Assembly: GCA_014190515.1 (NCBI GenBank)
Contig: BJGN01000011.1
Span: 1-42,178 of the forward strand
DNA from: Bacteroidota bacterium
GTDB lineage: Bacteria > Bacteroidota > Bacteroidia > Chitinophagales > Saprospiraceae
Direction: 5' to 3'
Length of the DNA: 42,178 nucleotides
Below are positions 4,632 through 42,178 of this stretch, piece by piece. Every line of letters begins with the position of its first letter. The first letter of the stretch is position 1. A program made the position numbers and the translations under genes. Under the pieces are notes generated by a model. The model was given only the letters and a program-made list of their open reading frames with translations, did not search any database and was not told the origin of the DNA.

Positions 4632-4638
4632 CTCAACT

Positions 4639-8550: not shown

Positions 8551-8580
8551 GAGAATTAATGTGACAGTTAAGCCCAAAAT

Positions 8581-9336: not shown

Positions 9337-9369
9337 AACTTTTCGTTGTACTTAAGCTGTTTACTTTTA

Positions 9370-10173
9370 ATGATTTTATACAAACTTTTGAAAAAACCAT
9401 TTTTCGGGCATTTCATGGTCAATTGGAGAAATCCACTGTCTGAAGATGAGAAAAAGAATTGGACAGAATTTTCAGTTCTAAGTAAATCTGGTGCAACCCT
9501 ATCTGGATTATATGCCATAGCAAATAACCCTAAAGCGACCATTGTTTTAGGGCATCCCATGGGAAAAGAAGCAAAAGGTTACTTCTTAAAAAATGGTTAT
9601 ACCGACTTATTATTAAGTAATGGTTATAACGTTGTAATTTTTGATATAAACGGGTTTGGAGAAAGCAGCATGGGTAATTTTTCCTATTATGAAGATATAG
9701 TTTCGATCAGTAAGAAAGCGAAGGAATTATTTCCAAACCTACAAATTGGATATCATGGAATCTCTTTGGGAGGACAATATGCCACTATATCGTTTGCGGA
9801 TAATTTGCATTGTTATGACTTTGCAATCATAGAAAGTGCCCCAACAACCTTAGATGAATTCTGGATTCATTTTCCTTCTGCGCACAATGCGTTGAAACTA
9901 TTCAATGTATTTATGCCAAAATATAAAAGCAAAATAAATATGGTTGAACGGATTAAAGAAGCTAAAAGATTAAAATCTATTTTGTTTATTTATTCTGATA
10001 CTGATACTTGGGCAACAACCGAAATGGGAAAAAGATTTCATGAAAATTGTCCCGTTTTATCTGAACTATGGACTGTTCCGGTGGCAAAGCACGCCATGAT
10101 CATAAAATCAGATTTCAGCGAGCAGTATAAGCAAAAAATAATAGCCTATTTTGACCATTCCATTAATATATAA
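9370..10173 (+). CDS. Alpha/beta hydrolase fold protein (possible esterase)
   Basis: The product of about 267 residues has an alpha/beta-hydrolase core. The strand and oxyanion segment is TIVLGHPMGKE. The nucleophile elbow GISLGG carries S132. D210 or D212 (YSDTDTW) is the acid and H241 (AKHAMI) the base. The N-terminus (MILYKLLKKPFF) is short and weakly hydrophobic, so export is uncertain. I prefer ATG 9370; a TTG at 9346 would add eight hydrophobic residues and make a better membrane anchor. It follows the xylanase by 10-34 bases. An acetyl-xylan or feruloyl esterase role would fit the context, but the closest architecture is the generic serine hydrolase group, so no substrate is claimed. 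Confidence 0.8.
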   Translation: MILYKLLKKPFFGHFMVNWRNPLSEDEKKNWTEFSVLSKSGATLSGLYAIANNPKATIVLGHPMGKEAKGYFLKNGYTDLLLSNGYNVVIFDINGFGESSMGNFSYYEDIVSISKKAKELFPNLQIGYHGISLGGQYATISFADNLHCYDFAIIESAPTTLDEFWIHFPSAHNALKLFNVFMPKYKSKINMVERIKEAKRLKSILFIYSDTDTWATTEMGKRFHENCPVLSELWTVPVAKHAMIIKSDFSEQYKQKIIAYFDHSINI

Positions 10174-13779: not shown

Positions 13780-13824
13780 AATATACTTATATTTAGTGAA
13801 CGCAAATTTCTCATTAAGTATATT
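13780..13824 (+). promoter_or_regulatory. Long-loop inverted repeat in the leader of the first M1 peptidase gene
   Basis: AATATACTTA (13780-13789) and TAAGTATATT (13815-13824) are perfect 10-base arms separated by 25 bases. The second arm ends four bases before the ATG at 13829. In RNA the stem would cover the ribosome-loading region; in DNA it could be a split operator. Both are inference from position. Confidence 0.35.
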
Positions 13825-13828
13825 TCCA

Positions 13829-19193: not shown

Positions 19194-20150
19194 TTATTTC
19201 TTCTTCTTGGTTATTTTAGGCCTTGCTGTCAACTGATAGGTAAATGAAAAAACATGGTCTCCAGCGGAGAAATTACCCCCTGTTAATGGAAAATCAAACT
19301 GATACCCAATACCAAAAGGATGTTTGGATACCAGGGCATTTAAGCCGACAGACTGGCTTCCTGTGATGGTCCGGTAACTGGAATTCCTATAAACAGGTGC
19401 CAGGCTGAAAAAAGATCCTTGTGCGGTCATAAATCTGACCTCTCCCAAAATATCTAATTGATAATCAGCATTCTCCTGCGTTCTTACAAGCATACTTGGT
19501 CGTATCACTATCTTATCCTTTATTGGCAATTCCAATCCGGTAGATACAAAAACGGTGAAGGCATTCTGAAGATCATTTTCATCGGTAAAAACAGGATTGA
19601 AAAAAGGTAGAAAATTATAGGCAGACACACCTAGAAAAAAACCATGCGTGAAGAAATTAAATCCAACATTAAAGTTAGGAGCTAAATGATTGAATTTTGA
19701 ATCATCGTTAAATACATCATCCGTAACGCCCAGGTCTAAAAAGTTCTTTAATTCAATCCTATATTGATTCATATTTGCTGACAATCCGAAGGAAAATCCC
19801 GACGGTTTTTTATCCCCTTTTTTAGTGGTAAGGATATGATAGGCAAAAGTTGTTTCAAGGCCTGCATACGAACTGGCTCCATTCTGATCCTTGAATAAAT
19901 TAAAACCCACTCCAATTTTACTTTTTGAAAAAGGATAATCTGCGGAAATAACTTGTGAATTAGGGGAATTTTTGAAGCCCGCCAATTGCTTTTTGTATAT
20001 CAATGTGGCACTTCCATGTCCCTGACTCCCGGCTAATGCTGGATTGGTTAAATAAGGTTTGAAAAAATTCTGATTCTGGAAAAGAAAATTCTGCCCGCTT
20101 ACAGCGAAATTCAAACCCAACAAAAATGAAAAGAAAATAATACCTCTCAT
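19194..20150 (-). CDS. PorP/SprF family type IX secretion-associated outer-membrane protein
   Basis: The 318-residue protein has a signal peptide (about residues 1-19, ending VSGQ) and the family opening NFFKPYLTNPALAGSQG, followed by alternating amphipathic strands of an outer-membrane beta-barrel. Family members such as SprF of Flavobacterium johnsoniae are needed for secretion or attachment of a partner carrying a type B (gliding-type) sorting domain, and are usually encoded right beside it. Here the giant adhesin ends 7 bases upstream, so this is very likely its dedicated partner. The C-terminus is basic (KKKK). Confidence 0.93.
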   Translation of the reverse strand: MRGIIFFSFLLGLNFAVSGQNFLFQNQNFFKPYLTNPALAGSQGHGSATLIYKKQLAGFKNSPNSQVISADYPFSKSKIGVGFNLFKDQNGASSYAGLETTFAYHILTTKKGDKKPSGFSFGLSANMNQYRIELKNFLDLGVTDDVFNDDSKFNHLAPNFNVGFNFFTHGFFLGVSAYNFLPFFNPVFTDENDLQNAFTVFVSTGLELPIKDKIVIRPSMLVRTQENADYQLDILGEVRFMTAQGSFFSLAPVYRNSSYRTITGSQSVGLNALVSKHPFGIGYQFDFPLTGGNFSAGDHVFSFTYQLTARPKITKKKK

Positions 20151-20157
20151 GATTTAA

Positions 20158-23100
20158 TTACTTTATTAAAGTGAAATTCCCCTTGCGGATATCCTCTTTA
20201 GTTACCTGAATAACATACCAATAGTCGCCTGCAGAGGCAGGAATCTGTCCAATCATTCCATCCCAACCTAGGGAGTCTCCTGCATATTCAACGAGTAATC
20301 TACCTGTTCTATCGAAAATATACACCTTAGATTCCGGGTAGAAAACAAGTGCTGGATTTTCCCAGCGATCATTATTGCCATCGCCATTTGGAGTGAAAAA
20401 GCTGGAAAGTTTAATCTCACTGTCTATCACATTGAATTGGGTTTGACAGGTTTTGTCGCCTACGGTAATCTTAAAGCCCGCAAAACCTGTAGTCGTTGGC
20501 GTTCCGGTTACTTTATAACTTAGGGTACCACCCATTGGATTTAATCTTAAGGAATCTCCCGTAAGCGTTAAGCCTGCTACACCTGTTGAAGAAAGGGTTA
20601 AAGGACCAACTTTTCCGTTGTTACCGCCTTGATAATTAATCTTCAATACCCCAGTATATTCCACATCTTTTCCAAGATCATCCGGAGTCAATTGGCTGCT
20701 ATTACAATCAAAAGAGGATAATTTTGGTAATAATAAGGTCACTGGCAATTCTACGATACAAGTTTTTGCACCAAAAGCTATGTTAAATATTGCCTTTCCA
20801 GTATCGGCTGGAACGCCCGTTGCCACCCATTCTAATGATCCATTACCCACTGCCAGCTTCCCAGGTTGAAGGGTAAGATTGAGGCCAGTAACTCCGGTGG
20901 ATGAAAGGTTCATTCCTGTAAAATCGCCCCCATTACCGCCTTTGTAGGACAAAATGATAACCCCTGAATACGGTTCGCCTTTATAAATTTCCATATTGTC
21001 GATGAGGTAAGTTCCGCAAAACAAGGAATCGACCTGATCATTTTTGTTGACAGTAATGGTTCCAGTTGCATTTAAAATGCCACAACCACCGGTTAAAGCA
21101 ATACTATAGTTGAAAATACCGCTTATTGTTGGTACACCACTAATAGTTACCACATTTGCCGACCACACTGCACTTACGCCATCTGGCAGCCCAGTTGCGG
21201 CCCCTATTCCAGAAATACCCGTGGTTGTATGCGTAATATTTGTAAGCAGCCTGTTAATATTTAACGCAGGTGTTGAAGAAGCTGGGGTCACTGAACTGAC
21301 TGGAGAAACGGTGATGGTTCCCGTGGCGCTGCCAGTTCCGCAACCACCCGTTAAAGGAATGGTATAATTAAAAGTACCGCTTACAGAAGGGGAACCACTT
21401 AATCTTATGGTATTAGCCGACCACGACGCGTTTATACCTTGTGGCAACCCGGTGGCCACACCAATACCGGTCGCCCCTGTGGTATTATGTGTAATAGTTG
21501 TCAGCGCTGTATTAACGCATAAAGTTGGTGTTGAACTTGGAGCACTTACCGTATTGTTTACTCCAACGGTTATACTTCCCGTTGCATTCACCAAACCACA
21601 ACCTCCGGTTAAAGGAATGGTATAATTAAAGGTTCCACTTTCGCGAGGGGTTCCACTGATTGTCAATACGTTGGCTGACCAATTGGCTATTAAACCCGCT
21701 GGAAGGCCCGTCGAGAGGCCTATGCCTGTCGCACCCGACGTTGTATGTGTTATATTTGTTAAAACGGTATTGACACACAAAGCAGGCGTTGAACTAGCTA
21801 CACTCACTGTATTTCCGGAAGTAACGGCAAGGGTAGTACTTGCTGTTGTTTGACAACCACGGCTATCCGTTACGGTTACAGTATAAACACCCGCTGCACT
21901 TGCCTTAATACTGCTACTTGTACTTCCCTGGGCATTACTCCACAGGTAGGAACTTATTAACGCACCCGCATTTGTTTCCGCATTTACCCTAAGAGTGACT
22001 TCGTTCGCCGGACAAAGAATACCTTCATTAGATACCCTTCCGCTATTTTCACTAACCACTACATTTGTTTGAATACCAAACGATGGCTCCATAATTTCTA
22101 TAGACCTTACTGCTTTACAGCTATTTACACTACTTTCTGTTACAGTTACCTGGTAATTTCCTTTTGGAAGATTTGTCAGGGAAGCAGCAGTAGCACCCCC
22201 GGCATTCGATGACCAGACAAAAGTATATGGAGAAGATCCATTACTTACATTAAGCGAAATAGTACCATCAGAAGCCCCCGGGCAAACCACATCTGTTTTC
22301 GACACACCAATAATTAACGGAATACTTCTATCAGTTAAGGTAGCTGTTGCCACTCCACTACAACCCTTTTCATCGGTCACGGTCACTTTGTACTGACCTT
22401 GTATTAAGCCAGAAATAGTTGGCGAGACTGAGCCGTTGCTCCAAAGGTAAGACCAACCATTGCCCGTTGAAACCGACGCAGATCCCGTTTGATTCAACAA
22501 ACAATCTGTGTTCGTCACAGAAACGGAAGGTTTGGGTTTGCTGTTAACTAACACAATAGTTTTTGCTACGGAAATACAACCATCGGAGTCAGAAGCTGTC
22601 ACTGAATATTCAGAAGATAAAGCAGGTGAAACAATCAAAATGGATTTTGTTTCTCCTCCGCTCCATGCATAAGAAGCTGCTCCTTTGGCATTTAACACCA
22701 CACTTTCTCCTTCACATATCGTACCATCGTTATTTAATAAGCCCGATTTATCTGTTACGACAATAGAAACATCATTTGTTGCTTTTACGGTAATCGAACC
22801 TGTTGCGCTTACTGCGCCACAACCACCTATCAATGGAATCATATAATTAAAGGTTCCACTTTCCGATGGTGAACCACTAATAGTGATTTTATTTGCCGCC
22901 CAGGCAGCTGTTACCCCTTCAGGTAACCCTGTTGCTTTACCAATACCTGTCGCTCCCGTTGTTGTATGGGTAATATCTGTTAATAATCCATCGATGCACA
23001 GCGTGGGTGTTGAACTTGCCACGCCAACCAAATTATCAGGTGCCAATGTTAAGGTATTACTTGCCGTTGTCTGACAGCCCCTGCTATCTGTTACAGTAAC

Positions 23101-26100
23101 TATATATAATCCTGCCGCACTTACATTAATGCTATTACTTGAACTACCTGATGCATTATTCCAAGAATAAGAACTGATGGTTGCGCCTGAGGTAGCCGCT
23201 GCGCTTACCGTGATGGTGGCTGCATCGGAAGGACAGATAATTCCATCATTCGCCTGCGCACCACTATTCTCCCTTATCACCATATTCGTTTGTACCCCAA
23301 ACGATGGCTCAAAAATTTCGATAGAACTTACCACCTTACAGCTATTAGCACTTCCCTCTGTCACCGTTACTGAATAGCTGCCTCTGGAAAGATTCGATAG
23401 ATTAGCCGAAGTTGCTCCACGAGCGTTAGAGGACCAGGCATAAGTGTATGGAGAAGATCCACCAACCACATTGAGCCTGATTGTTCCATTCGACCCACCC
23501 TGACAAATAACATCTGTTTTGGTTATTCCAATGGTTATTGGTAGGCTTACATCCTTTAGTGTCGCCATAGCGGTTCCCTTACAACCCTTTTCATCGGTCA
23601 CCGTAAGATTATACTGGCCTTGAGATAGTCCGGAGATACCTGCTGTAGTTAACCCATTGCTCCAAAGATAAGACCAACCACTTCCAGTAGAAGCCAAAGC
23701 TGTGCCATTTTGACTTGAAGAACAATTCGGATTTGTTGAGGTAACGGTTGGCACAGGTAAAGTATTTACAACAACCGTTGTTTTAACCATGGCAGTACAA
23801 CCATTATCGGAACTTATTGATACGGTATATTCTGTAGTAGTTTTTGGAGCAACAGAGAGAATTGAACTGGTCTCTCCCCCATTCCACATAAAAGTTGAAC
23901 CACCTTTAGCTATTAAAATAACCTCATCGCCGGCACAAATTGTACCGTCATTATTTACCAATCCAGATTTATCTGTTATCACTATGAAAGCATCATTCGC
24001 CGATGTTACGGTAATGGTACCTCTAGCACTTAAGCTACCGCAACCACCCGTCAATGGAATAGTATAATTGAAAGTACCCGACGCTGTTGGCGTTCCGCTG
24101 ATGGTGATCACGTTCAATGCCCATCGTACAGATACGCCTGCAGGAAGTCCCATTGCGGTGCCTATACCCGTCGCGCCTGTCGTCGTATGCGTTATATTTG
24201 TTAATGCTGAATTAATGCAGAGCGTTGGTGCTGAAGAAGCTACACTCACTTTATTCGCTGGGGTAACTACTATCGTCCCTGTAGCATTAATATCAGCACA
24301 AGCACCAATAATTGAAATTGCATAATTAAAAGTACCGCTTACAACAGGCGTTCCACTGATAATGATACCCTCTGGAATCCAGGATGCCACTACCCCTTCA
24401 GGTAAACCTTTAGAAAAACCTATTCCCACTGCATTGGTTACAGTATGTCTGATTTCTGTAAGCGAGCTATTGATACAGAGTGTTGGGGTTGAAGAAGCTG
24501 CACTCACTGTAATAGAAGGATTAACCACAATGGTACCCGTTGCCTTTACCGTATCACAACCTCCGGTGAGTGGAATACTGTAACTGAAAGTACCCGACGC
24601 CGTTGGCGTTCCACTAATCGTTATTACGTTCGCTGACCATGCTGCAGATACGCCCGCAGGAAGTCCCGTCGCGGTGCCAATACCCGTAGCGCCTGTCGTT
24701 GCATGCGTTATATTTGTTAATGTTGAATTAATACATAATTCAGGCGCCGATGAAGCTGCTGAAACGGTATTCGCTGGTGAAACAATAATAGTTCCCGTAG
24801 CATTTAAACTACCGCAACCACCTTTCAAAGGAATACTGTAAGTAAAAGTACCCGATGCCGTTGGTGTTCCGCTAATCGTTATTACGTTTGCTGACCATGC
24901 TGCAATAACACCCGCAGGAAGTCCTGTCGTAGTGCCTATACCCGTCGCGCCTGTCGTTGTATGCGTAATATTTGTTAAGGCTGTATTAATGCAGACCGTT
25001 GGTGCAGATGAAGCTGCTGAAACGGTATTCGCCGGGGTAACAATAATTGTACCCGTAGCACTTAAATTTCCACAAGCTCCAGTCAAAGGAATACTGTAAG
25101 TAAAAGTACCCGACGCCGTCGGTATTCCGCTAATCGTTATTACGTTTGCTGACCATGCTGCAATAACACCCGCAGGAAGTCCCGTCGCCGTGCCTATACC
25201 CGTCGCTCCCGTGGTCGTATGCGTTATATTTGTTAAGGCTGAATTGATGCATAACGTTGGTGTTGAAGAAGCTACACTTACTGTATTTGCTGGTGTAACC
25301 ACAATAGTACCTGTAGCATTTAAACTATTACATCCACCCGTCAAAGGAATACTGTAAGTAAAAGTACCCGATGCCGATGGTGTTCCGCTGATCGTAATCA
25401 CGTTCGCTGACCATGCTGCCGATACCCCCGCAGGAAGTCCCGTCGCCGTGCCTATTCCCGTCGCTCCCGTGGTCGTATGCGTTATATTTGTTAAGGCTGA
25501 ATTGATGCAGAGCGTTGGTGTAGAAGAAGCTGCACCTACTGTATTATCAGGATTCACCGTTATGGTTCCCGTTGCCGTCACGCTGTCACATCCACCCGTC
25601 AATAAAATACTGTAATTAAAAATACCGGTCACTGTTGGCGTACCAGAAAGAGTTATTCTATCGGAAGCCCATGATGCTAAAACACCCGCAGGAAGTCCCG
25701 TCGCCGTGCCTATTCCCGTCACGCCTGTCGTTGTATGGGTAATATTTGTAAGAACTGTATTTATACATAGCGTTGGTGTAGATGAAGCCACACCCGCACT
25801 ATTCCTAGGAGTTACCCTGATAACCCCAATGGCACTCAAAGTATCACAACCCCCTGTGAGTGGAATTAAATATACATATACGCCAGAAACCAAAGGCTTT
25901 CCGCTAATCGTTATGACGTCAGCTGCCCACTCTGCAGTGACCCCGTCAGGAAGACCTGTCGCGGTACCAATGCCGGTTGCTCCCCTTGTTCTGTGGGTGA
26001 TATTGGTTAGCGTTGTATTAACACATAGAGTAGGTGACGAACTGGCTATAGTCACTGTATTGGAGGGTATTACGGTAATAGTACCTATAGCGATTGAAAC

Positions 26101-35100: not shown

Positions 35101-38100
35101 GATGCTGGCACTAAAAGTTACCTTATTTGCTTCAATGGCCACATCGTTTAGTGCGAGTTTGCCCTGTATAACGGAAGCGTTGATTGTCACCAGGCTACTA
35201 ATGGTTGTAAAGATACCATTGTCATAAACCCAGGTTGAGCCTTCTGCATCTCCACCTGAACTTACGATGGTCAAATCACCTGTCCCCATTGCTGTCCGAT
35301 AAATAGCATGCAAGGTATTGGCAGCTAAAACGGGGGTAAATTCGGTGGTTGTTTCATCGGCATTAACCCGAACATTGGTTTCACCACCAACCAGAGTTGT
35401 TAGTCCGATACTATTCAATTCAAAACCACTGAATAATTTAGCTATGCCGCCAGTTCCCATCGTTAAAGTAGGCGTCGGAGAACCTGAAAGTTTAATGTCC
35501 CCTCCAGTACGTGTACCTATGGCAGCACTTTTTCCTGCATTGATATGGATAGCATTTGCGGTAGTGTTTGTCGACGAAATATTCTGGGCGATGGTCAAAT
35601 CTCCGGCCAGGGTTTCAACCAATACCGTGCCACTGGAATGTATGCCACTTTTTGTACCCACGGTGCCAATGGTTAATCCGCCACTCGCGTCGGTAAAACT
35701 TAATGAACCCAGTCTGGTACTACTTTCACCACCTGCCAGGGTAGACACATTATTGCTGGTATTATTCAGCGTAAAAGTACCTGTGCCATGTAAGCCAAGA
35801 TTACTGGATACTATGGCAGCTGTTTGGGTAACTGCACCAGTGGCGTACAGATTAATATCATTGTTGGTAGCCGTCAGAGCACCCCCTATAGTCATGGCAC
35901 CCCCATGAAAAGTCATAGGAGCTGCGGCAATTAGTGCTGAATTTATCGTTAATGCGGCAGAATTACCCACTTTTCCTGAGGTAAATGCGCTAACCGTGCT
36001 AATATCGAGATTACGGATCGTCGTTGCTGCGCTAAAGCTATTATCAGCGGATCTTGGTTCTATCTTGAAAGTACCTGTGGTACCTACCTTAGTAGCTCTA
36101 AGCCCATCAAAAAGAACATTATTCCCACTAAGAAGAACATTAGCAGCTGTATTTATTACGGAAGGAGTAATTCCTTGAACTGTTGTGGCATTTAATCTGC
36201 TACCAAAATAAATATTACCATAACTCAATACCTGGCCCAGGCCTTGTGTCACTAAACCAACTGGAGTAGCACGCAGAATAATATCTCCATTACCTGATAA
36301 TAATTGAATGTTGGACGTTGAGTTCTCCCCCGCCAAACGCAAAGCCACATTTCCAGTGGCTGTTTGGCTTCCTTCCATTAAAATACCTCCACCCGTTGGC
36401 GAAGAAGACTGTACTAATACATTTCCCCCACCTGCATTTATAAAACGGATACCGTCATAAAGACTGGACCCCCCTGCAATGGTAATAGCGGGACCGACGC
36501 CTGCATAGGAAGACGTAATGGCTATATTCGGAGCTACACCATACGTAAATTCTATCCCATGATTAACTGACGAAATACCTAGCATATTAATCCGGCCTAT
36601 TCCAGAATTAATCAGGAGGTTACCCTGGGAAGTTATGCCAGGCCGCGAATTCGATCCCTGCCAGGCTGAACGGCCTTTAATGATGATATCTCCGCCACCG
36701 GTCAACAAGGATACTACCGCACCTGTTCCCCCAGCTACACCAAGATTTACCCCACCGGTATATTCACCAGCCCCTCTATATGCATAATTATCTGGTATAC
36801 CATCGGAAGCTACACCTCCGTTTGCCCCATCATCGAGACCACCCGCCATTATCAATTTTCCTCCCTGCGTATTTACCGTAACTCCAGCACGCAATCCAAT
36901 TTCATCATCATTGCCAGCGGTGGAGGATGCTTGACTATTATCGGCATCGGCCCAAAAAATAATATCCCCATTATTAGACTGCACCATTTTTCCTTCAACA
37001 TTCACCCAAGCCCAGCCTCTGGCTTTAAAGAGTATTTTAGCCCCTGAGGCGGTTGAAATAAGGTTTTCGTTAATTCCAATATAACTACCTTGTAGGGTAA
37101 TCGGCCCAGCTACAGATAAGCCACCAATATGGTCGTGAACTATCGCAAAATTGTCTGTCAATTTTCCAAGGGTCAATCCACTCATGCCATTGGCTATTTT
37201 AAACCATATAGTATGAAGATTTGCATTAAAGGAAGCGTCATTTGACTCCATCGTGAAGGTGCCCGTTCCATTTATCCAAGGTCTATGGTTATCAGTAATC
37301 GTCTCCCAATTAAATGACTCCCCTCTGATGATAGTATTCCCAGCCCCAGGATTGATGGTCAAATAGTCCAAGTTCAATACACCTGACCCATTAGCCTCCA
37401 TATCGGCATTAATGGTAATATTTCCTCCAGCCGAAGTAATGATTTTTCTATTAGAGGTACTTAAAGTATTTTCAGAATAGAACCCACCGTTCGCATTCAA
37501 AGTAATGTTGGAAGCAGCAGTAGAAGTAATATTTGCCCCTGTCTCAATATAGCCAGTAGCCTGCAAAAGAATATTGGCGTTAGTGGTAGTAGTCGTCAGG
37601 TTTTGTTTGACCCTGACATCTCCCCCGCTTATGGTGATTGGACCAGCTACAGAAATATTAGCACCTATGGTAATATCTGCTGTATTTCCTGTTTTACCAA
37701 TAGTTAAACTGGAGGCACTATCAGCAACCGTATAATTTGAATTATGAGGAAAGATTTCAGCCGCTGCAAAACTTGTTCCAACGGGTTGATAGGTAACAGC
37801 CCCTCTGGTTTTAACCTTAAATCCATTAAGCCCGGCACCTACCAGACTGGAATAGGTGAAAACCACATTTCCGGTGGCTATCCAACTGTTATTGGAGGGA
37901 GAACCGAAATAGATATCCCCCCAGCTGGAATGACCAATACCTCCCGCAGCGGTAGTACCTCTGTCCCCGATGATTTGAATTGCTCCTGTTTTAGATAAAA
38001 TCTGTATATGTTTGATTTGACTAGCTAAGCCTGATGATCGGTAAAAGTTGATACCATAAGTATTGTTACTTTGGGTGCTTGTAAGTTTACCCGATAAAGT

Positions 38101-40107
38101 AATATTACCCTGATCTGTTTCAATGTTAGAAATTTCGTTGTTAAATGAAATACCCCCAAAATATTGCGTACCATTCCAACCACCAATAGCATCACCATAA
38201 ATACCAATGGTACCTGTACCGGTAGTGGTTATATTTGCCTGAAGACGAACTCCGTCATCATAGCTGCTGTTACATTTACCATATATATTAATATTCCCTC
38301 CTGCCGCAGTTAGCGTTGCATTATTGATAAGGATACCTGGTGAACCATTTGGTCTATTAGATGCGGCATAAAGGCCGGCACCTTCTGTTCCAGTAAAATT
38401 ACCTCCTAATGTTATGTTTCCTCCATTAGACAGCAAGCTTGAACCACTGTTTAGGGTAATTGAACCAGTGGTAGCATTAGGTAAAACCACTGCCGTTCCA
38501 AGCGAGTTAGATCTAAAAGTGATATTTCCTCTATTTGTTTGAAGGACTCCGCTTGCTCCTATCTCAATATAGCCAGTAGCCTGCAAAAGGATATTGGCGT
38601 TAGTGGCAGTAGTCGTCAGGTTTTGTTGGACCGTGATATTACCAGCATAAATACTCATGGCTCCAACGGTGGTCCTCGGACTTGATAAGGTCAAATTGGC
38701 GGTATTGGTTGATTTACCATAAGTAAAACTGCCTAATGTAGTGCCAAAATTCCAGTCATCATCAAAGGTTAAGGTACCACTGGCTCCTGCCCTCATATAG
38801 GTAAAAGTATTGTCTTTGGGTTGAATTGCAAGGTTACCTGTAGTTTGCACCGATATAGATCCTGAACCTGCGTTAACATTGTTTTGGATAATTGAATTCC
38901 CATCAAGAGTGATATTTCCGTTGTATGCATTGGTTCCATCGTGGCCTATTCTGATGGAATTGGAAGTGTTAGCAGCAATAAACTGTAATGCATTGCTATT
39001 TTGGCCAGCGTTCTCTCGACTATTTGAACCCGTTAGCACAATATTTCCGCCGCGTGAAGTAATTTTTATACCATCTGCGATGGCTTGCGTTGAACCCAGC
39101 TGAAGCCCCATCATGTCATCATTTCCATTGGTTGGAAAGGCAGCGGTACCGGTAATGGTTATGTTACCAGAAGTTGAAGAGACAGCAATACCATTTAATG
39201 ACGTGTATAACAAAGCCCCCCGCCTCCAGCCGGTATTGGTTCCTGACTGGTCCACGCCAGACCCAGTGAGGTTTATAGATCCTGTGGTGCTGTTAATTGT
39301 AACTGCACCCGAGTTACCAAAAATACCCAATCCACTTCCAGTTCCGTACATTCCTTTTAAATCACCAATAATGTCAATTTGTCCCGGACCTGAGGTAATT
39401 GTGCTATTTCTTATGTTTATTCCGTAATTTTCCCCGTCACCATCACTAGTATTCCATGACAAACCTGCCATATAAATATTTCCTCCGCTTGTGTTCAGGC
39501 TGGAACCTATGAACGACAGACCAGAAAGGTCATCTGCCCAGGTGCGAGCTGAGGTATTGCCAACATTCAGACCATTCCAGGTCGCTGTAGTGGAACCTCC
39601 ACCTGACCAGAAATGACCTCCATTAGTTGTTATGGTTGTTCCATTCAATTGTATTCTACCATGATCAGTGTTGGAAGTAGACATGGCTGTTCTCAGAACT
39701 AAGTTTAATGATGCATTGCTTGAGGAAATACTGATACTTGAAGCAGCAATAATGTCATTGACTATATTAAATGTAAGTGTTCTGGAAGTTGAACCAGTAT
39801 AAGCAATGGAGGAATTTATGTATAAGTCACGTGGTACCCCGCTTACCCAAGGAAGCACAATAGTAAGATTACCTATATTGGTCAGATGATCGATTATGAC
39901 ACTTGGATGAATATTTGCTGAGACATTGGTATTCGACACCGTTAGGGTATTTCCCGTAATACTCCAATTGGTTCCAGAGGTTCCTGTTTGTCCTACTGTG
40001 GATATCGTCAGGTGTTGTGCAAACCCTGAAGTGACAAACAATGAAAAAAACACCACAGCGTTAATTAACGCTGTGGTGCGAAAAGCTTTTTTAAAATTCA
40101 TTTTCAT
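20158..40107 (-). CDS. Giant surface adhesin: beta-helix region, 23 Ig-like repeats, PKD/SprB-like modules, T9SS type B sorting domain
   Basis: A single uninterrupted frame encodes 6649 residues. Residues 1-31 are a signal peptide (ending SGFAQ). Residues ~32-3417 are Gly/Thr/Ser/Asn-rich beta-strand repeats like filamentous haemagglutinin, in about eight super-repeats marked by TLGK-x-GN and AGPI-x-x-x-GG, with autotransporter-type beta-strand repeats near 2370 and 2700. Residues ~3418-6355 hold 23 Ig-like repeats of ~85 residues and three ~322-residue composite modules. Residues ~6356-6562 contain two related ~90-residue beta domains. Residues ~6563-6649 are the gliding-type C-terminal domain (FFTPNGDGNNDRWENP to NFTLIK), the signal for type IX export and surface attachment. 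The likely role is adhesion, gliding or aggregation, like SprB. A PorP/SprF gene follows at 7 bases and a LuxR-type regulator gene lies upstream. Confidence 0.95.
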   Translation of the reverse strand: MKMNFKKAFRTTALINAVVFFSLFVTSGFAQHLTISTVGQTGTSGTNWSITGNTLTVSNTNVSANIHPSVIIDHLTNIGNLTIVLPWVSGVPRDLYINSSIAYTGSTSRTLTFNIVNDIIAASSISISSSNASLNLVLRTAMSTSNTDHGRIQLNGTTITTNGGHFWSGGGSTTATWNGLNVGNTSARTWADDLSGLSFIGSSLNTSGGNIYMAGLSWNTSDGDGENYGINIRNSTITSGPGQIDIIGDLKGMYGTGSGLGIFGNSGAVTINSTTGSINLTGSGVDQSGTNTGWRRGALLYTSLNGIAVSSTSGNITITGTAAFPTNGNDDMMGLQLGSTQAIADGIKITSRGGNIVLTGSNSRENAGQNSNALQFIAANTSNSIRIGHDGTNAYNGNITLDGNSIIQNNVNAGSGSISVQTTGNLAIQPKDNTFTYMRAGASGTLTFDDDWNFGTTLGSFTYGKSTNTANLTLSSPRTTVGAMSIYAGNITVQQNLTTTATNANILLQATGYIEIGASGVLQTNRGNITFRSNSLGTAVVLPNATTGSITLNSGSSLLSNGGNITLGGNFTGTEGAGLYAASNRPNGSPGILINNATLTAAGGNINIYGKCNSSYDDGVRLQANITTTGTGTIGIYGDAIGGWNGTQYFGGISFNNEISNIETDQGNITLSGKLTSTQSNNTYGINFYRSSGLASQIKHIQILSKTGAIQIIGDRGTTAAGGIGHSSWGDIYFGSPSNNSWIATGNVVFTYSSLVGAGLNGFKVKTRGAVTYQPVGTSFAAAEIFPHNSNYTVADSASSLTIGKTGNTADITIGANISVAGPITISGGDVRVKQNLTTTTTNANILLQATGYIETGANITSTAASNITLNANGGFYSENTLSTSNRKIITSAGGNITINADMEANGSGVLNLDYLTINPGAGNTIIRGESFNWETITDNHRPWINGTGTFTMESNDASFNANLHTIWFKIANGMSGLTLGKLTDNFAIVHDHIGGLSVAGPITLQGSYIGINENLISTASGAKILFKARGWAWVNVEGKMVQSNNGDIIFWADADNSQASSTAGNDDEIGLRAGVTVNTQGGKLIMAGGLDDGANGGVASDGIPDNYAYRGAGEYTGGVNLGVAGGTGAVVSLLTGGGDIIIKGRSAWQGSNSRPGITSQGNLLINSGIGRINMLGISSVNHGIEFTYGVAPNIAITSSYAGVGPAITIAGGSSLYDGIRFINAGGGNVLVQSSSPTGGGILMEGSQTATGNVALRLAGENSTSNIQLLSGNGDIILRATPVGLVTQGLGQVLSYGNIYFGSRLNATTVQGITPSVINTAANVLLSGNNVLFDGLRATKVGTTGTFKIEPRSADNSFSAATTIRNLDISTVSAFTSGKVGNSAALTINSALIAAAPMTFHGGAMTIGGALTATNNDINLYATGAVTQTAAIVSSNLGLHGTGTFTLNNTSNNVSTLAGGESSTRLGSLSFTDASGGLTIGTVGTKSGIHSSGTVLVETLAGDLTIAQNISSTNTTANAIHINAGKSAAIGTRTGGDIKLSGSPTPTLTMGTGGIAKLFSGFELNSIGLTTLVGGETNVRVNADETTTEFTPVLAANTLHAIYRTAMGTGDLTIVSSGGDAEGSTWVYDNGIFTTISSLVTINASVIQGKLALNDVAIEANKVTFSASIINPTANNFKVLAKSHIVNTGATTISSIGGDVLLASNVDDANDFESTNNGYIQFRGGLTINTQGGDITLGGGNNQGSDYALGSSAQDYTEGVRIDLVANFNSGGGNIAIKGKSYARSVSPGYGASGLGFYFLSSADTISSGTGTILLDGYSQTNGSSYCSGIVFYVNNASFPFTIQSANTTANAVTINGYAHGVSGDDVFGIETEATSSLNITATGVGGGVTINAGNNTNDFFYDIVLRGPTNILANGGPISLNGKYNNGKEGGRMFINNNLYLGSKAASVVPSSSSNINIQFDSYYFNGYRPFIATTGAVDWKSASASFKFGVQTDWFTWNQNGQIMRSFTLGKTGNATNLLIDMAITAAGPINMYGGAITINAALTSSDTGNIFLKSIWNGNPSISNNSTITKSGGTGVLTMQGNARVTNTGTITTSGTGVMDVIMWSDYDNTNNDGGVSQMGTISTNGGHVWLGGSNTNGGSYTWNGLTVGNGPSIGASGYNGYALDFWGNITTNGGDLLAWAVSGLDNGIITDNDGSTVTTGSGDLIFIADLISGSGGASIVHTGTGKVYLLPDAGSYGTTLDWTHNGNLSALNIGGIYNYLLINNSTSISGLNLGYYDQMSDSSGPVILTNTSPVTISSPNTIAGPVSIYGGAIALNANFTTSNITTGNILIKGTSLSGTGNLTLANTRNVNIDVSATSTYNGVISGTQASLTKAGAGLLTLQKDHTYTGATLITRGNLQVGSGGSLSQASSGTINSTSSVTIDSSAKLILAPNEDITFTRPVSGVGGLEIKGASGAYYNVFLTSTAATIATNATVLEILTRITGGLQSGAAVAFSFGTQTAGAYIKSYNALTNSATFQFQQFDGTYTKCVFAELSQSGTNVQIRANTSIYNGAAYRNGNHLGVDMSTGSTTIGALATSPTGGGYGISNVYMSGKVNFTGALTYQDTTVLSNSVTSSTSPNTYSFTSKGTQEITDISSSFPGAVINNGLVIFKRATPLTIAGNMSGSEEILQVGAPITLLGNNTHSGIITIAKDSSLSIGNGGTSGSIAGNIVNYGRLTFNRSDSSNYRGVISGSGTLIKSGQSPLLITGANTYTGPTVINAGNLIFENNIPATASSSFSGAGLLEIRPASVSFTNPVSYPISGFNISTSIGGLTLGKPGNTANISLTAPVQTAGPISFYGGDLAINHNIRTNSAGADVLLKATGKINLGASDTIFTNTGDVSLWADADVNSTGYVQLLTNSSIVTSGGDINLGGGANLTTGFALGTALETCPEAIGTQYISGVHFRSGTSLNSNGGNINIRGKNTGTSNPAMSFGVGFRGSVIHSGTGKISITGVASGSGSANAQAVSSWDQITLRSASTASDAISIIGDALNVNNAGTAMGMNLNAIIEATGTGGGITLNGASGTATEIKISTQFYGDLLAASGPITIIGSNPTGIQENVKFAGTTVIGKKAGSNVTSSSSNVTIEGNVIATPGAVTIDCIGSLTVRPNNSFTSAFTWPMTNITVPGAITGLTLGKANNTSNITVATNQSIAGPVSIYGGKININGALTATNSNLNFHARDSVNQTAPITGSGLGLHGTGHFSLSHASNNVSTIAGGDNTNRLGSLHFVDLSGGLEIGSVNPTGIYSAGPVLIETTEGNIELKQPVSSNANVDSLTGYKGAIVLNAGKRINISTDTGGDIVVTGSGSVSAPNGIVKLFAGNSDGSTGLNSLVGGASNVRTFVDETSTNYSPVLISKEKYAMYRDRSRCFADTASSTPTICISGILPLVTIATTGSTGIGTPSGLPAGVTAAWAFNTITIQGTPSEAGVFTYSIPLTGDCGTGNPMAIGTITVDSLNTVSVASSTPTLCINSALTDITHTTTGATGIGLPTGLPAGITATWASNVITLSGTPTAAGTFNYIIPLTGGCGNVNALGTITVTPNNTVSAGSTSTVCLSSALTNITHTTTGATGITSILRIPLGVSATWASNTITISGTPTETGIFNYSILLTGGCGSITATGTINVNSGNTVTAASSTPTLCVNTALTNITHKTTGATGIGTPNGLPVGVTAIWAADSILLSGTPSEFGTFNYTIPLTGGCGDVSATGSITVTPANTVSAGSTSTVCLSSALTNITHTTTGATGIGTATGLPAGVTAVWAPNTITISGTPTATGIFTYNIPLTGGCGIVSAGGTITVNATPTAAIAVTDQSGLTNNDGTICVGMDAILKATGGSTFTWGDGSTNSILKVSPTATTSYAVTVVDNNGCSATVNRIVSVNSLPIPTVTSTPPNCPGNTTGTALASSGSGWSYLWSSGATTASITELPQGLYVVTVTDLNGCKGTASASLVDAATPVTIVASKTDVVCYGAQTGAISLAVTGGTSPYSYAWSANASGATSTTTNLMNLPKGNYTVTVTESGIKNCKAVSTIEILEPSFGMQLNLLVKENSGALANDGTICTSESATIKVNALPNTGATISSYSWSVTGNTNDSLIVNTAGAYSVTVTDNRSCVASATSSAITVTPANTVSSSSPSDTLCVNTLLTNITHTTTGATGIGTATGLPAGVNAVWASNTITISGTPTITGIYNYNIPLTGGCGNVAATGTITVTEITSVSLASTSPTLCNNTLLTDIIHTTTGTTGIGTPVNLPEGVTATWSNNTLTISGTPTASGTFYYTIPIIGGCGSVNATGTINVTQEMSVSAGNSAQTLCINTPLTGLSHLTSGGTTGIGTPTGLPAGVTASWNFSTISIVGTPTESGTFNYSIPLSGGCGTVSATGTIIVTPLNTASAASSTPSLCINTPLTNITITTTGATGISSFTGLPAGVSANWNANVITISGTPRSSGVFNYSVSLSGGCGDVNATGTLTVTPENTVSAPSTTPTLCINTPLTDIIHTTTTATGIGTATGLPNGVTAQWVSNRLIILGTPTNSGIFTYTVPLTGGCGSVNATGTITVTPVNTVSAASSTPTLCLYTSLTTIKHSTVGATGIDTSIGLPPGLTANWSSDTIFITGTPEVSGIFKYEIRLSGGCGVSIAIGTITVIPSNTVTIASSSPTLCVNTTLTNITHRTRGATGIGTATGLPDGVTAEWAADVITISGKPLVSGVYVYLIPLTGGCDTLSAIGVIRVTPRNSAGVASSTPTLCINTVLTNITHTTTGVTGIGTATGLPAGVLASWASDRITLSGTPTVTGIFNYSILLTGGCDSVTATGTITVNPDNTVGAASSTPTLCINSALTNITHTTTGATGIGTATGLPAGVSAAWSANVITISGTPSASGTFTYSIPLTGGCNSLNATGTIVVTPANTVSVASSTPTLCINSALTNITHTTTGATGIGTATGLPAGVIAAWSANVITISGIPTASGTFTYSIPLTGACGNLSATGTIIVTPANTVSAASSAPTVCINTALTNITHTTTGATGIGTTTGLPAGVIAAWSANVITISGTPTASGTFTYSIPLKGGCGSLNATGTIIVSPANTVSAASSAPELCINSTLTNITHATTGATGIGTATGLPAGVSAAWSANVITISGTPTASGTFSYSIPLTGGCDTVKATGTIVVNPSITVSAASSTPTLCINSSLTEIRHTVTNAVGIGFSKGLPEGVVASWIPEGIIISGTPVVSGTFNYAISIIGACADINATGTIVVTPANKVSVASSAPTLCINSALTNITHTTTGATGIGTAMGLPAGVSVRWALNVITISGTPTASGTFNYTIPLTGGCGSLSARGTITVTSANDAFIVITDKSGLVNNDGTICAGDEVILIAKGGSTFMWNGGETSSILSVAPKTTTEYTVSISSDNGCTAMVKTTVVVNTLPVPTVTSTNPNCSSSQNGTALASTGSGWSYLWSNGLTTAGISGLSQGQYNLTVTDEKGCKGTAMATLKDVSLPITIGITKTDVICQGGSNGTIRLNVVGGSSPYTYAWSSNARGATSANLSNLSRGSYSVTVTEGSANSCKVVSSIEIFEPSFGVQTNMVIRENSGAQANDGIICPSDAATITVSAAATSGATISSYSWNNASGSSSNSINVSAAGLYIVTVTDSRGCQTTASNTLTLAPDNLVGVASSTPTLCIDGLLTDITHTTTGATGIGKATGLPEGVTAAWAANKITISGSPSESGTFNYMIPLIGGCGAVSATGSITVKATNDVSIVVTDKSGLLNNDGTICEGESVVLNAKGAASYAWSGGETKSILIVSPALSSEYSVTASDSDGCISVAKTIVLVNSKPKPSVSVTNTDCLLNQTGSASVSTGNGWSYLWSNGSVSPTISGLIQGQYKVTVTDEKGCSGVATATLTDRSIPLIIGVSKTDVVCPGASDGTISLNVSNGSSPYTFVWSSNAGGATAASLTNLPKGNYQVTVTESSVNSCKAVRSIEIMEPSFGIQTNVVVSENSGRVSNEGILCPANEVTLRVNAETNAGALISSYLWSNAQGSTSSSIKASAAGVYTVTVTDSRGCQTTASTTLAVTSGNTVSVASSTPALCVNTVLTNITHTTSGATGIGLSTGLPAGLIANWSANVLTISGTPRESGTFNYTIPLTGGCGLVNATGSITVGVNNTVSAPSSTPTLCVNTALTTITHNTTGATGIGVATGLPQGINASWSANTIRLSGSPSVSGTFNYTIPLTGGCGTGSATGTITVSPVSSVTPASSTPALNINRLLTNITHTTTGISGIGAATGLPDGVSAVWSANVVTISGVPTISGIFNYSIALTGGCGILNATGTITVNKNDQVDSLFCGTYLIDNMEIYKGEPYSGVIILSYKGGNGGDFTGMNLSSTGVTGLNLTLQPGKLAVGNGSLEWVATGVPADTGKAIFNIAFGAKTCIVELPVTLLLPKLSSFDCNSSQLTPDDLGKDVEYTGVLKINYQGGNNGKVGPLTLSSTGVAGLTLTGDSLRLNPMGGTLSYKVTGTPTTTGFAGFKITVGDKTCQTQFNVIDSEIKLSSFFTPNGDGNNDRWENPALVFYPESKVYIFDRTGRLLVEYAGDSLGWDGMIGQIPASAGDYWYVIQVTKEDIRKGNFTLIK
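20161..20421 (-). other. T9SS type B (gliding motility-associated) C-terminal sorting domain of the adhesin
   Basis: The last ~87 residues begin SSFFTPNGDGNNDRW, continue with VYIFDRTGRLLVEY and DSLGWDG, and end with AGDYWYVI and GNFTLIK. These are the hallmark blocks of the CHU_C / type B domain, which directs passage through the type IX translocon and depends on a PorP/SprF-like partner. Confidence 0.95.
21043..21816 (-). repeat. Ig-like repeats 21-23 of the adhesin
   Basis: Three ~258-bp units encode the ASSTP-x-LC-x-N / GLP-x-G / ISG-x-P / LTGGCG pattern. The final unit has ALNIN where the others have a cysteine (LCIN or LCVN). Confidence 0.9.
21817..22779 (-). repeat. Composite module C (PKD-like + SprB-like segments) of the adhesin
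   Basis: This 321-residue copy runs from DVSIVVTDKSGLLNNDGTIC through a PKD-like unit, a SprB-like unit (TGNGWSYLWSNGS), a second SprB-like unit (CPGASDGTISLNV), the linker IEIMEPSFG and a final ISSYLWSNAQGSTS / GVYTVTVTDSRGC unit. It is collinear with modules A and B. Confidence 0.85.
22780..23034 (-). repeat. Ig-like repeat 20, a single unit between modules B and C
   Basis: This 255-bp unit has the two cysteines of the family and stands alone between two composite modules, so the module-plus-repeat block appears to have duplicated as a unit. Confidence 0.85.
23035..24000 (-). repeat. Composite module B of the adhesin
   Basis: This 322-residue copy is collinear with modules A and C, and starts DAFIVITDKSGLVNNDGTIC. 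The SprB-like unit (CQGGSNGTIRLNVVGGSSPYTY) and IEIFEPSFG linker are in the same order. Confidence 0.85.
24001..27615 (-). repeat. Ig-like repeats 6-19 of the adhesin
   Basis: Fourteen units average 86 residues. Units 14-17 (about 24520-25560) are nearly identical at DNA level, while units 11, 12 and 18 have drifted. Most units have one cysteine in LCIN near the start and one in GGC about 57 residues later. Confidence 0.9.
27616..28584 (-). repeat. Composite module A of the adhesin
   Basis: This 323-residue copy begins IAVTDQSGLTNNDGTIC and is collinear with modules B and C. It contains a PKD-like unit (GGSTFTWGDGSTNS), two SprB-like units (SGSGWSYLWSSGA; CYGAQTGAISLAVTGG) and IEILEPSFG. Confidence 0.85.
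28585..29856 (-). repeat. Ig-like repeats 1-5 of the adhesin
   Basis: Five units follow the beta-helix region directly. Units 3 and 5 share a variant start (AGSTSTVCLSS) and an 80-bp identical stretch. Confidence 0.9.
29857..40014 (-). repeat. Beta-helix-like N-terminal region of the adhesin with eight super-repeats
   Basis: About 3,390 residues of short strand-turn units (GNITL, GGNI, SGTGTI types). A TLGK-like marker followed by AGPI and a GG turn recurs near 38720, 37700, 37165, 35975, 34080, 33280, 31650 and 30570. The fourth and eighth super-repeats share a long extra block (LGLHGTG, NNVSTLAGG or NNVSTIAGG). Confidence 0.75.
31790..33000 (-). repeat. Autotransporter-associated beta-strand repeats within the adhesin
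   Basis: Units near 32,985-32,870 (LTKAGAGLLTLQKDHTYTG, then GNLQVGSGGSL) and 31,895-31,790 (LIKSGQSPLLITGANTYTG, then NAGNLIFENN) carry the G-x-G-x-L-x-K-x-G and N-T-Y-T-G patterns of this repeat family. The rest of the beta-helix region lacks them. Confidence 0.8.
40051..40078. repeat. Perfect 28-bp palindrome inside the adhesin signal-peptide codons
   Basis: The half-site CACCACAGCGTTAA is followed at once by its exact reverse complement, with no spacer. It covers nucleotides 30-57 of the adhesin coding sequence. In mRNA it could fold to a 12-bp stem with a 4-base loop about 30 bases after the start codon. It may be a regulator site, a translational control hairpin or a coincidence of signal-peptide coding. 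Confidence 0.95.
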
Positions 40108-40274
40108 TTACACCTATTCAATAAACAATTATTAGGCGAAAATAGAATTTACTTTTTTTAAAAAAAAAGAACCTTATACGGGAAAAACACGGTATGTTGC
40201 AAAAACAACTTTAAAAAAAGTACTTTAATTTCAACATGATATATAGTAAATAAATTATTTATTTAGGTAATATA

Positions 40275-42077
40275 CTATTCATTAACAAAAGATAAAAGAT
40301 GGGTAATCAAATTTTCCTGAGGAGTAAGATTCATTTTTTTGCGTATATTAGTCCTAGTAGATTCAATCGTTCGCATGCTTCTATTGGTGATTAATGCCAG
40401 ATCTTTTGAGGATGGATTTAGCCTTAAATAGGCACATAATTTCAATTCGGATGGACTTAAATCGGGATATTTATGTAACAGTAAACTAAAAAAATCTTCA
40501 TTATTTGACGTCAACCGAACATCAAAATCATTTTTAAGCATGAGAATAGGGTCTGCTTTCAACACAGATCCAATCTTTTTTAATTTGACCTGTTCCGTTG
40601 AATTATCGCTTAGGATTTTTGATGTTTTTTGAACCATATCATTCACTTGCTGCTGCATTTGTGCCAATAGCGTGACCTGCGAGGTTAATTCCTTTTCCTT
40701 ATTATCAATCACGTCCTTCAGATATTTCCTGTTTAATTCTTGTTTTTGTTTTTCCAGCAACACTATTTTATGTTTATTCCGCCACCATTGAATGATAACT
40801 AACAATAAAAGCACGCAAACAATCAATATTGAAATGAAATATTGATAATTCAATTGCTTTTTGGACAGGGTTACGATTTCCCTCTCTTTTTTCTCCGATT
40901 CATATTTCTCCTTTAACGCAAAGGCTTCCTTTTTAACAGATTCATTCACCAGACTATCATTCAGAAGATGAAATTTTGTTTGGAAAGTGTAAGCTGCTTT
41001 ATAGTCAGCCATGTCTCTGGATAGCCAGGATAATCGCTCGTAAACCAAGGCTTCTTCCCGAACAGAATTCAATGATTTGGTTAAGGTCAGGCTTTTATTC
41101 AATCGGAGGGATGCATCGGTATATTTCTTTTGCAGGCGAAAAAGATTTCCCATATTGAGGTTAGTCAACATGACGCCATATTGAATATTATTCTCCGCAC
41201 AAACCCTTTCACATTCAGCAAAAAGTTTTTCAGCCGCTGATAAATTTCCTTGTTTTTCTAGAATATTTGCCCGATTTGTCAGATTTTGAGCCAGCAAAAG
41301 GGGATAATCAGCCTTTTTTAATTCCCGATAGGCCAAATCATAATAGGTCAATGCCTTTTCAATTTGATTTGTCTGTTTATAATTACTTCCTAGGTTATTG
41401 TAATTCATAATCAGCGGATAGGTATAACCCAGGGATTTATTGATATCAATGGCTTTTAAAAGATTCAATTTTTGATTTTCCCTGTCGCCAAGTCGCTCGT
41501 AGTTGGTAGCTAAATTATTATAAGCAACAGCCAATTCCTTTTTATCTCCAATTTTTTCAAAAAAGGAAATAGCTTGCAATAATGATTTTATAGCAAGGGA
41601 ATATTTTCCAATGTAAGCATTTTTCAATCCATCCACCATTAAATAATTTCCATAAAAAGGCGAGGTGGGTGACCTAAATTTTTCTGCCTGACTATGCCAG
41701 TAGTTGAGAGAATCAATATTTCCTTTAAAATAAAAAGTACTTGCCAGTTGCAAATAAATGAAAGCAATTTCCATTTCGTCCTTTTCACCAACGAGTTGTC
41801 TGAATTTATGTAAGGTAAGGATGGTCAAATTATAATTATCTGTTTTATCCAGATAATCTAATTGTAAACGGTATAGCTCGATGAATAGCTTCTCATTTAA
41901 TAGTTCCTTTTCGACCTTAAAGGATTCTTCTATAAAGTCGGCTGGATTTCTTTGAAGGATTTGCTTTAGCGAATCTATTTTTTGCTTCCCAACGTTTGGA
42001 CCAGATGTGGGCGTATTTTGTCCTTGAATACTTGTTAAAATATTAAGTAGTAAAAAGAAGGATAAGATTACTTTCAT
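40275..42077 (-). CDS. TPR-containing transmembrane regulator with C-terminal LuxR-type helix-turn-helix
   Basis: The 600-residue protein has a signal peptide (about residues 1-19), then about six to eight tetratricopeptide repeats to residue ~370 (for example YNNLATNYERLGD and YNNLGSNYKQTNQIEKALTYY). One membrane helix follows at about 407-427 (ISILIVCVLLLLVIIQWW), then a charged coiled coil (~430-485) and a LuxR-type helix-turn-helix (~540-595: LSPSELKLCAYLRL, RTIESTRTNIRKKM). TPRs would face the periplasm and the DNA-binding end the cytoplasm. Such proteins in Bacteroidota are thought to be one-component membrane regulators. It lies 167 bases upstream of the adhesin on the same strand and is a natural candidate to control it, but this is inferred from position. 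Confidence 0.88.
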   Translation of the reverse strand: MKVILSFFLLLNILTSIQGQNTPTSGPNVGKQKIDSLKQILQRNPADFIEESFKVEKELLNEKLFIELYRLQLDYLDKTDNYNLTILTLHKFRQLVGEKDEMEIAFIYLQLASTFYFKGNIDSLNYWHSQAEKFRSPTSPFYGNYLMVDGLKNAYIGKYSLAIKSLLQAISFFEKIGDKKELAVAYNNLATNYERLGDRENQKLNLLKAIDINKSLGYTYPLIMNYNNLGSNYKQTNQIEKALTYYDLAYRELKKADYPLLLAQNLTNRANILEKQGNLSAAEKLFAECERVCAENNIQYGVMLTNLNMGNLFRLQKKYTDASLRLNKSLTLTKSLNSVREEALVYERLSWLSRDMADYKAAYTFQTKFHLLNDSLVNESVKKEAFALKEKYESEKKEREIVTLSKKQLNYQYFISILIVCVLLLLVIIQWWRNKHKIVLLEKQKQELNRKYLKDVIDNKEKELTSQVTLLAQMQQQVNDMVQKTSKILSDNSTEQVKLKKIGSVLKADPILMLKNDFDVRLTSNNEDFFSLLLHKYPDLSPSELKLCAYLRLNPSSKDLALITNRSMRTIESTRTNIRKKMNLTPQENLITHLLSFVNE

Positions 42078-42178
42078 ATAATGACACCTTTGGAGAATAC
42101 TGGATTCTAAGTGAAGATAACTTTATAAACTGGAAGTAATACTTGCGAATATAGTATATTTTATGATTGTAAATGATT

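Follow-up and report, generated by a model that had tools for sequence, protein, structure and literature searches.

A giant adhesin of the type IX secretion system (T9SS) in a Saprospiraceae genome is encoded between a membrane regulator and an outer-membrane partner, and the three genes probably constitute a self-contained surface-display module in which the adhesin has its own, exchangeable membrane-tethered regulator, the regulatory link being read from gene adjacency. The window analysed is the whole of contig C11 (42,178 bp), from a fragmented genome (355 contigs, 91% complete). Open reading frame (ORF) calls confirm the three-gene order proposed in an earlier note on this DNA, with all genes on the minus strand: a 600-residue one-component regulator with a TPR part, a membrane helix and a LuxR/NarL-type helix-turn-helix (HTH) at 40275..42077, a T9SS type B adhesin of 6,649 residues at 20158..40107, and a PorP/SprF family outer-membrane partner of 318 residues at 19194..20150, with gaps of 167 and 7 bp.

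We looked for the regulator and its neighbours in samples of 298 genomes from the window's family, 196 from the Cyclobacteriaceae (the family of Algoriphagus marincola) and 390 from the phylum. All six genomes of the window's genus in the family sample have a regulator match of at least 83%, that in genome G213 spanning residues 1–241 only, and the top family match outside the genus reaches 136.6 bits at 27% identity. A peptide-pattern scan of an 84,980-species collection gave 22 loci, of which the six at 41% or more comprise five in the genus and A. marincola. The regulator profile scores 1,002 bits in A. marincola, 430 and 242 bits in genome G485 and at most 185 bits in the remainder of the Cyclobacteriaceae sample; in the phylum sample the top match beyond the window's own genome is 178.5 bits. 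Seven members of this regulator clade have DNA beyond the regulator and could be assessed: the window, G258, G048, G290, G148, A. marincola and contig C27 of G485. G213, in which the contig stops within the regulator, and an apparent relic on contig C8 of G485 were left out. In all seven a surface-protein ORF lies downstream on the same strand at a distance of 119–167 bp, five of the pairs being in the window's genus and two, those of A. marincola and G485, in the second family. The regulator is kept beside the adhesin in every sampled relative in which this could be assessed, including the second family. This upholds the idea of a dedicated unit, and the search for the same gene order in other Bacteroidota that the earlier note had suggested is answered in its favour.

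The G290 locus reproduces the full order, with the regulator, an 8,062-aa adhesin and PorP separated by 166 and 7 bp; here and in the window the gene preceding the adhesin is the regulator, SprB-type remFG-sprCD neighbours having been considered. These are the two complete adhesins. Those of G258, G048, A. marincola and G485 run off their contigs after at least 545, 508, 2,288 and 961 aa respectively, and that of G148 can be followed for 1,034 aa, as far as a masked stretch, and continues past it. In six of the seven partners the N-terminus aligns as the same kind, including G258 and G048, of which only the first 545 and 508 residues are visible and match the adhesin; the G485 partner begins with a DUF5122 propeller. 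In A. marincola the regulator and the adhesin N-terminus show 41% and 40% identity, and the other flank of the regulator differs. The adhesin N-terminus itself was found in 5 of the 298 family genomes, every one in the window's genus; its second phylum-wide match, in G595, is a 1,076-aa ORF without such a module and was set aside. PorP/SprF comes next after the adhesin at each of the three adhesin ends located (window, G290 and G148), the G148 end being on a separate contig and assigned through its PorP and neighbours. A candidate for the missing adhesin end of G048, on contig C70, carries a different PorP-like ORF and was excluded from this count.

A different account, which we think unlikely, is that the main targets of the regulator lie elsewhere and that adjacency is kept because both genes travel as a mobile island. 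The spread of the pair is patchy, since at high identity it is confined to the window's genus in the family sample and yet A. marincola, of another family, has both genes; flanks differ between species, and a transposase-like ORF, which we take to be of IS30 type, lies about 1.3 kb upstream in A. marincola. However, gap length and sequence blocks are conserved within the genus, and G485 keeps the pairing although its partner is built differently at the N-terminus, a finding for which hitch-hiking by itself is a poor explanation.

The adhesin ends in a type B sorting signal (TIGR04131, 79.6 bits against a cut-off of 35; CHU_C, 49.4 bits against 27, at 20191..20412 on the minus strand) and contains SprB repeats (PF13573, 78.5 bits). 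Its N-terminus has a hydrophobic segment at residues 12–30 that is signal-like by simple hydropathy, the first half carries PATR/autotransporter-type repeats in two stretches, and the second half is dominated by immunoglobulin-like repeats of about 86 aa, part of which correspond to a 258-bp DNA unit present in 4.9 copies at 24522–25788. A model of residues 1–500 is mostly beta (predicted local distance difference test score, pLDDT, 73.8), and a beta-helix is likely at the N-terminus; compared with the PDB, nothing passes an E value of 0.001 (best 8.4e-3). The longer G290 version has the same C-terminus. Directly after the type B gene, the product of the third gene passes both family cut-offs (PF11751, PorP_SprF, 147.2 bits against 22.3; TIGR03519, 156.9 bits against 90.55). 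According to excerpts of PMC12618676, type B proteins need a cognate PorP/SprF, commonly encoded directly downstream, the cognate shuttle is required for secretion, and the pair of C-terminal domain and shuttle determines the destination. Type B substrates and PorP/SprF partners are themselves well established.

The TPR part of the regulator is recognised by Pfam (TPR_12, E=1.2e-15). By hydropathy, residues 1–19 are hydrophobic and signal-like, and residues 414–432 are the sole other strong hydrophobic segment; because the protein combines a signal-like N-terminus with a single membrane helix, the TPR part is predicted to be periplasmic and the HTH cytoplasmic. An AlphaFold model built with 30 sequences (mean pLDDT 83.7; predicted template modelling score 0.57) fits this topology, with a TPR superhelix at residues 27–376, a continuous helix at 379–488 that encloses the membrane segment, and a helical C-terminal domain in which the HTH lies at about 540–599 (helices 542–599). 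Its top matches in the PDB are TPR proteins such as LGN, with Rap proteins lower. Rap and NprR, which have a TPR superhelix that binds peptides, figure among the structural and profile matches, a generic TPR likeness only; they act in the cytoplasm and are encoded by Gram-positive bacteria or by the phages or plasmids of these. A profile of relatives (17 sequences) matches EsrB (7.1e-5) as well as VraR, GerE, NarL and FixJ in the PDB, and GerE is detectable in 11 of the 17 profile members at E<=0.01. Judged by the profile of its relatives together with the predicted fold, the C-terminus is a LuxR/NarL-type HTH. The LuxR-type assignment of the earlier note stands on these two grounds and not on the single sequence, in which GerE falls under the Pfam cut-off. 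Pfam finds no kinase domain in the protein.

These features suggest how the module would work. The regulator would sit in the inner membrane, with the TPR superhelix in the periplasm and one crossing helix that continues as a cytoplasmic coiled coil to the HTH. The TPR domain would bind a peptide or protein signal in the periplasm, upon which the coiled coil would pair the DNA-binding domains, and the paired HTHs would switch on an adhesin promoter in the 167-bp gap and perhaps the regulator's own as well. The type IX system would then use the type B signal to export the adhesin, and the PorP/SprF encoded by the third gene would hold the adhesin at the surface. We infer the topology, the signal, the target promoter and activation.

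In this phylum surface fimbriae can be under the control of a periplasmic TPR domain, as in FimS of Porphyromonas gingivalis, a TPR sensor anchored in the inner membrane and with a signal that is unknown (excerpt of PMC11053733). Both systems have a TPR sensor for a surface adhesive structure, and there is a weak NCBIfam match over the TPR-membrane region, scoring 49.1 bits against the cut-off of 600 for the FimS-type kinase. However, FimS, a histidine kinase, is paired with FimR as a distinct response-regulator protein, whereas the window regulator has its DNA-binding domain on the same chain and is kinase-free. The BT_3442 family of Bacteroides likewise involves a cluster of secreted-protein genes with a TPR protein at one end (excerpt of PMC2954219); that cluster includes a MACPF protein, and the match is 24 bits against a cut-off of 940. 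Both names were rejected as family identities, their scores being far under the cut-offs, and are used here as analogies. PorXY-SigP resembles the proposed module in envelope-linked regulation of type IX genes in Bacteroidota (excerpt of PMC9143113; also PMC7712824), but controls components of the secretion machine and is not tied to one cargo.

In a feedback version of the module, the TPR part would read the periplasmic state of the adhesin or of its PorP/SprF, as unexported cargo, instead of a signal from outside, and would adjust synthesis to match secretion. In its favour, peptides and proteins are ligands of TPR domains, the regulator stays next to its cargo, and FimS, with its periplasmic TPR domain, is the closest functional analogue (excerpt of PMC11053733); the sequences, however, offer nothing that separates cargo sensing from the binding of another ligand, and we give this arrangement a low probability.

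The relation of regulator descent to gene neighbourhood argues for a dedicated pair. A tree of 30 regulators groups the six rows that are paired with an adhesin in a single clade with support of 100/100, and a value as low was reached in 0 of 500 shuffles. The adjoining clade of seven, joined by a weak node (66/34), has five rows beside a protein of about 2,500 aa; in the other two, the downstream ORF of L036, which is PEGA/carboxypeptidase-regulatory-like, runs off the stretch, and near L185, two genes away on the opposite strand, is a gene whose product ends in a type A tail. The remaining 17 rows have no giant neighbour in the visible DNA (about 1.5 kb of flank only for seven of them). Among the 18 loci of the 142–190-bit tier (L169–L186), six (L169, L170, L171, L173, L174 and L175) precede a protein of about 2,500 aa and one (L177, where that protein runs off its stretch) is divergent from it, and the other 11 lack a giant neighbour. 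These seven represent a second pairing of regulator and cargo; L169 is nearly a copy of L170, and the partner in L169, the only member scanned, is a subtilase that carries a type A tail. No obvious giant adhesin lies within about 1.5 kb of flank in 24 remote family homologues (L020–L043), among which some downstream ORFs, such as those of L029, L031 and L036, run off and are of unmeasurable size. The adhesin pairing is specific to one regulator clade, and the neighbours of distant relatives lend no support to the whole TPR-LuxR family as adhesin regulators; the self-contained unit of the earlier note therefore stands as a dedicated pairing kept in two families and not as a general property of TPR/LuxR proteins, others of which, where examined, adjoin other genes. 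That a common TPR/LuxR protein merely happens to lie beside the adhesin, which the abundance of such matches might suggest (283 of the 298 family genomes at E<=1e-5, some to one part of the protein only), is highly improbable and already contradicted by the conserved order, with pairing in 7/7 assessable members and a single clade on the tree.

In several genomes a protein unrelated to the TPR-LuxR regulator occupies its place. The profile of the adhesin N-terminus matches 7 of the 196 genomes in the family of A. marincola, the best matches outside A. marincola being partial (E 7.6e-19 to 1.5e-9) and sometimes well inside the ORF. At five of these loci (L106, L107, L109, L110 and L111) a multi-spanning protein of roughly 400 aa with an AraC-type HTH stands in the regulator's place; HTH_18 was found in the three tested (E 2.9e-13 to 5.7e-12), with no TPR match. 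In the seventh genome, G377, the contig extends only roughly 1.6 kb upstream, and no regulator appears in that DNA. A profile of the AraC-type protein gave 25 matches of at least 260 bits in the same 196 genomes, and the neighbours of all 25 were examined. Eleven directly precede a same-strand ORF of at least 1,000 aa (ignoring an overlapping antisense ORF in L193; some of the ORFs run off the contig or stretch), and since many of these loci look orthologous, the independent events number fewer than 11. Two more, a tandem pair in G394, are followed by a 4,061-aa ORF with a short HTH-like ORF between, and for another the next gene is PorP, after which comes a 3,814-aa ORF. A type B or PorP gene stands one or two genes upstream of five (checked by Pfam in L200, L206 and L207), three have as next gene one that is collagen-like in the one tested (L205), one more is two genes from such a protein, one is without such a neighbour, and one is at a contig end. 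The full order of AraC-type regulator, adhesin and PorP is present in five cases (L106 with L125, L111, L194, L209 and L210); Pfam confirms the type B domain and PorP in L194, L209 and L210, and PorP also in L111 and L125. A type B domain was found for the adhesins of G341 and G451.

Three arrangements coexist in G485: a TPR-LuxR pair (C27), an AraC module (C12) and, on C8, a TPR-AraC protein with a giant adhesin as neighbour. The partners on C27 and C12 both begin with a DUF5122 propeller, the closest approach here, as far as the sequences go, to a single cargo type governed by two types of regulator. The apparent relic on C8 is a 186-aa membrane-and-HTH ORF that lacks the TPR part, with the TPR-AraC protein and the divergent giant adhesin ORF adjacent. 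In this last arrangement (L168, 8053–19214), a TPR sensor is joined to the AraC class of HTH, and the giant adhesin transcribed divergently from it is of GLUG/MBG type.

Giant type B adhesin modules thus seem often to carry a cis-encoded membrane-tethered regulator of an exchangeable class, TPR-LuxR in the window's clade and, it appears, multi-spanning AraC in many Cyclobacteriaceae. A broader version, which we regard as doubtful, is a modular class in which each giant type B adhesin has its own regulator drawn from unrelated families (TPR-LuxR, multi-spanning AraC, TPR-AraC and perhaps extracytoplasmic function (ECF) sigma factors), the sensor responds to the state of its own cargo, at export or at the surface, and display is decided adhesin by adhesin. 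Neither regulator was found beside any of 11 other giant type B ORFs (about 2,090–3,260 aa) in the visible stretches of the same genomes; these controls are a subset of the matches listed, with ORFs lacking a visible start (L117) left out. In one of these controls (L128, 1217–10571, on contig C26 of G337) a seven-transmembrane histidine kinase ORF lies 443 bp upstream of the 2,087-aa type B protein, and a PorP-like ORF (called from the ORF) comes after it, so that other kinds of membrane sensor also occur before giant type B genes. The TPR-LuxR regulator has zero matches in the 21 stretches of the window's own genome that hold its 23 other type B matches, and the only AraC trace in them is a weak fragment (38.8 bits) about 6 kb from a type B gene; among these loci, C186 was viewed only in the short locus L004, and at least the three genes on C99, C159 and C124 run off the contig, which hides the upstream gene.

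Two shorter type B loci show further arrangements. In the window's own genome, at G000:C94 (L145, 5684–9498), an ECF sigma factor, a 377-aa ORF without Pfam match (a putative anti-sigma factor), a 375-aa type B protein and PorP/SprF stand in a row on one strand. In G213:C85 (L116, 1440–5675) a multi-spanning protein with a weak HTH_18 match (E 0.0048), a LuxR response regulator, a 376-aa type B protein and PorP/SprF are likewise in a row on one strand.

The 167-bp gap between regulator and adhesin (40108..40274, minus strand) is conserved in five genomes of the genus, with a mean column identity of 86%, and is a candidate promoter or operator only. It contains CTATTTTCGC at 40136–40145 (minus strand), and the region upstream of the regulator up to the contig end (42078..42178, minus strand) carries a sister element, CTATATTCGC, at 42145–42154. 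Each differs by one base from the Bacteroidota -7 box TAnnTTTG (excerpt of PMC9723704), a motif that is enriched upstream of genes in the stretches of this genome (23, against 11 antisense and 8.1 in shuffles). The consensus CTATWTTCGC is found upstream of both regulator and adhesin in the window's genome, G258 and G048, and the element before the G148 and G290 regulators is one base different. A direct repeat, CCGT-N7-CCGT, with units 11 bp apart, lies near 40178 and is present in the gap of four of the five genus genomes. Scans for sigma-70 promoters and terminators in this DNA gave no excess over shuffles. The candidate elements allow that the adhesin may have its own promoter inside the gap, and given this conserved promoter-like sequence, the three genes may not form a single transcript.

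Several observations weigh against the proposed module. Gene adjacency suggests regulation without proving it, and five of the seven pairs come from one genus, with two families in total. The end of the adhesin and PorP lie past the contig edge in A. marincola and G485 and are unlocated in G258 and G048. Distant TPR/LuxR relatives adjoin many kinds of gene. The GerE score of the regulator itself, 15.4 bits for the whole protein and 19.2 for the isolated domain, is under the Pfam cut-off of 23.5. Among the candidate DNA elements, the TAnnTTCG form is no commoner upstream of genes than in shuffles (3 against 3.4), and CTATWTTCGC is missing from the A. marincola and G485 loci and is not over-represented genome-wide, with 18 copies against 22 for a reversed control, which makes it only suggestive as a shared operator.

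Compared with SprB-SprF and other type B pairs of Flavobacterium johnsoniae, the locus is alike in the type B signal, the SprB repeats and the immediately following PorP/SprF gene. The operon that contains sprB has the composition remFG-sprCDBF, and sigma-54 and SM5 promoters are predicted before it in Flavobacterium psychrophilum; no membrane regulator is named in the excerpt of PMC9723704 that describes it, whereas the window has one in front. Mobile type B proteins such as SprB have an operon without a PorE-like gene (excerpts of PMC12618676 and PMC9143113). The window pair has no PorE-like gene beside it, the gene after PorP being an aminotransferase, which fits the mobile type B class and proves nothing. 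Among the matches listed from titles and opening abstracts of the open-licence PubMed Central literature, we found no described regulator for such a pair, in agreement with the earlier note; as open-licence papers alone were covered, the absence is only weakly supported. The component parts have been described before, and the linked, exchangeable regulator looks new. Otherwise the excerpts cited describe control of type IX genes as acting on the machine as a whole (PorXY-SigP) or through sigma factors. If the module operates as proposed, an adhesin-linked regulator would provide a simple rule for matching signal to adhesin, and one open to single-gene tests.

The contig ends only 101 bp upstream of the regulator start, so that the upstream neighbour of the regulator is not visible in the window. 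In a related locus (L044, 9151–9780) a 209-aa Fib_succ_major protein is encoded just upstream of the regulator; the same place is occupied in L045, L047 and L049, thus in four of five genus relatives (not L046), L044 alone having been scanned. At the other end, the aminotransferase gene lies on the same strand 126 bp beyond PorP, and is not counted in the unit because in G290 two ORFs that resemble a SusC/SusD pair, as read from the ORFs, intervene between PorP and the aminotransferase. Rfam and tRNA scans of the window gave zero matches. Elsewhere in the window, consecutive genes at 3138–10173 for a sulfatase, a DUF6807/DUF7133/HEAT/cytochrome c fusion, a GH11 family protein and a hydrolase resemble a polysaccharide-degradation cluster, a PD-(D/E)XK family transposase gene lies at 10216–11100, and tandem M1-type peptidase genes overlap by one base at 13796–17085.

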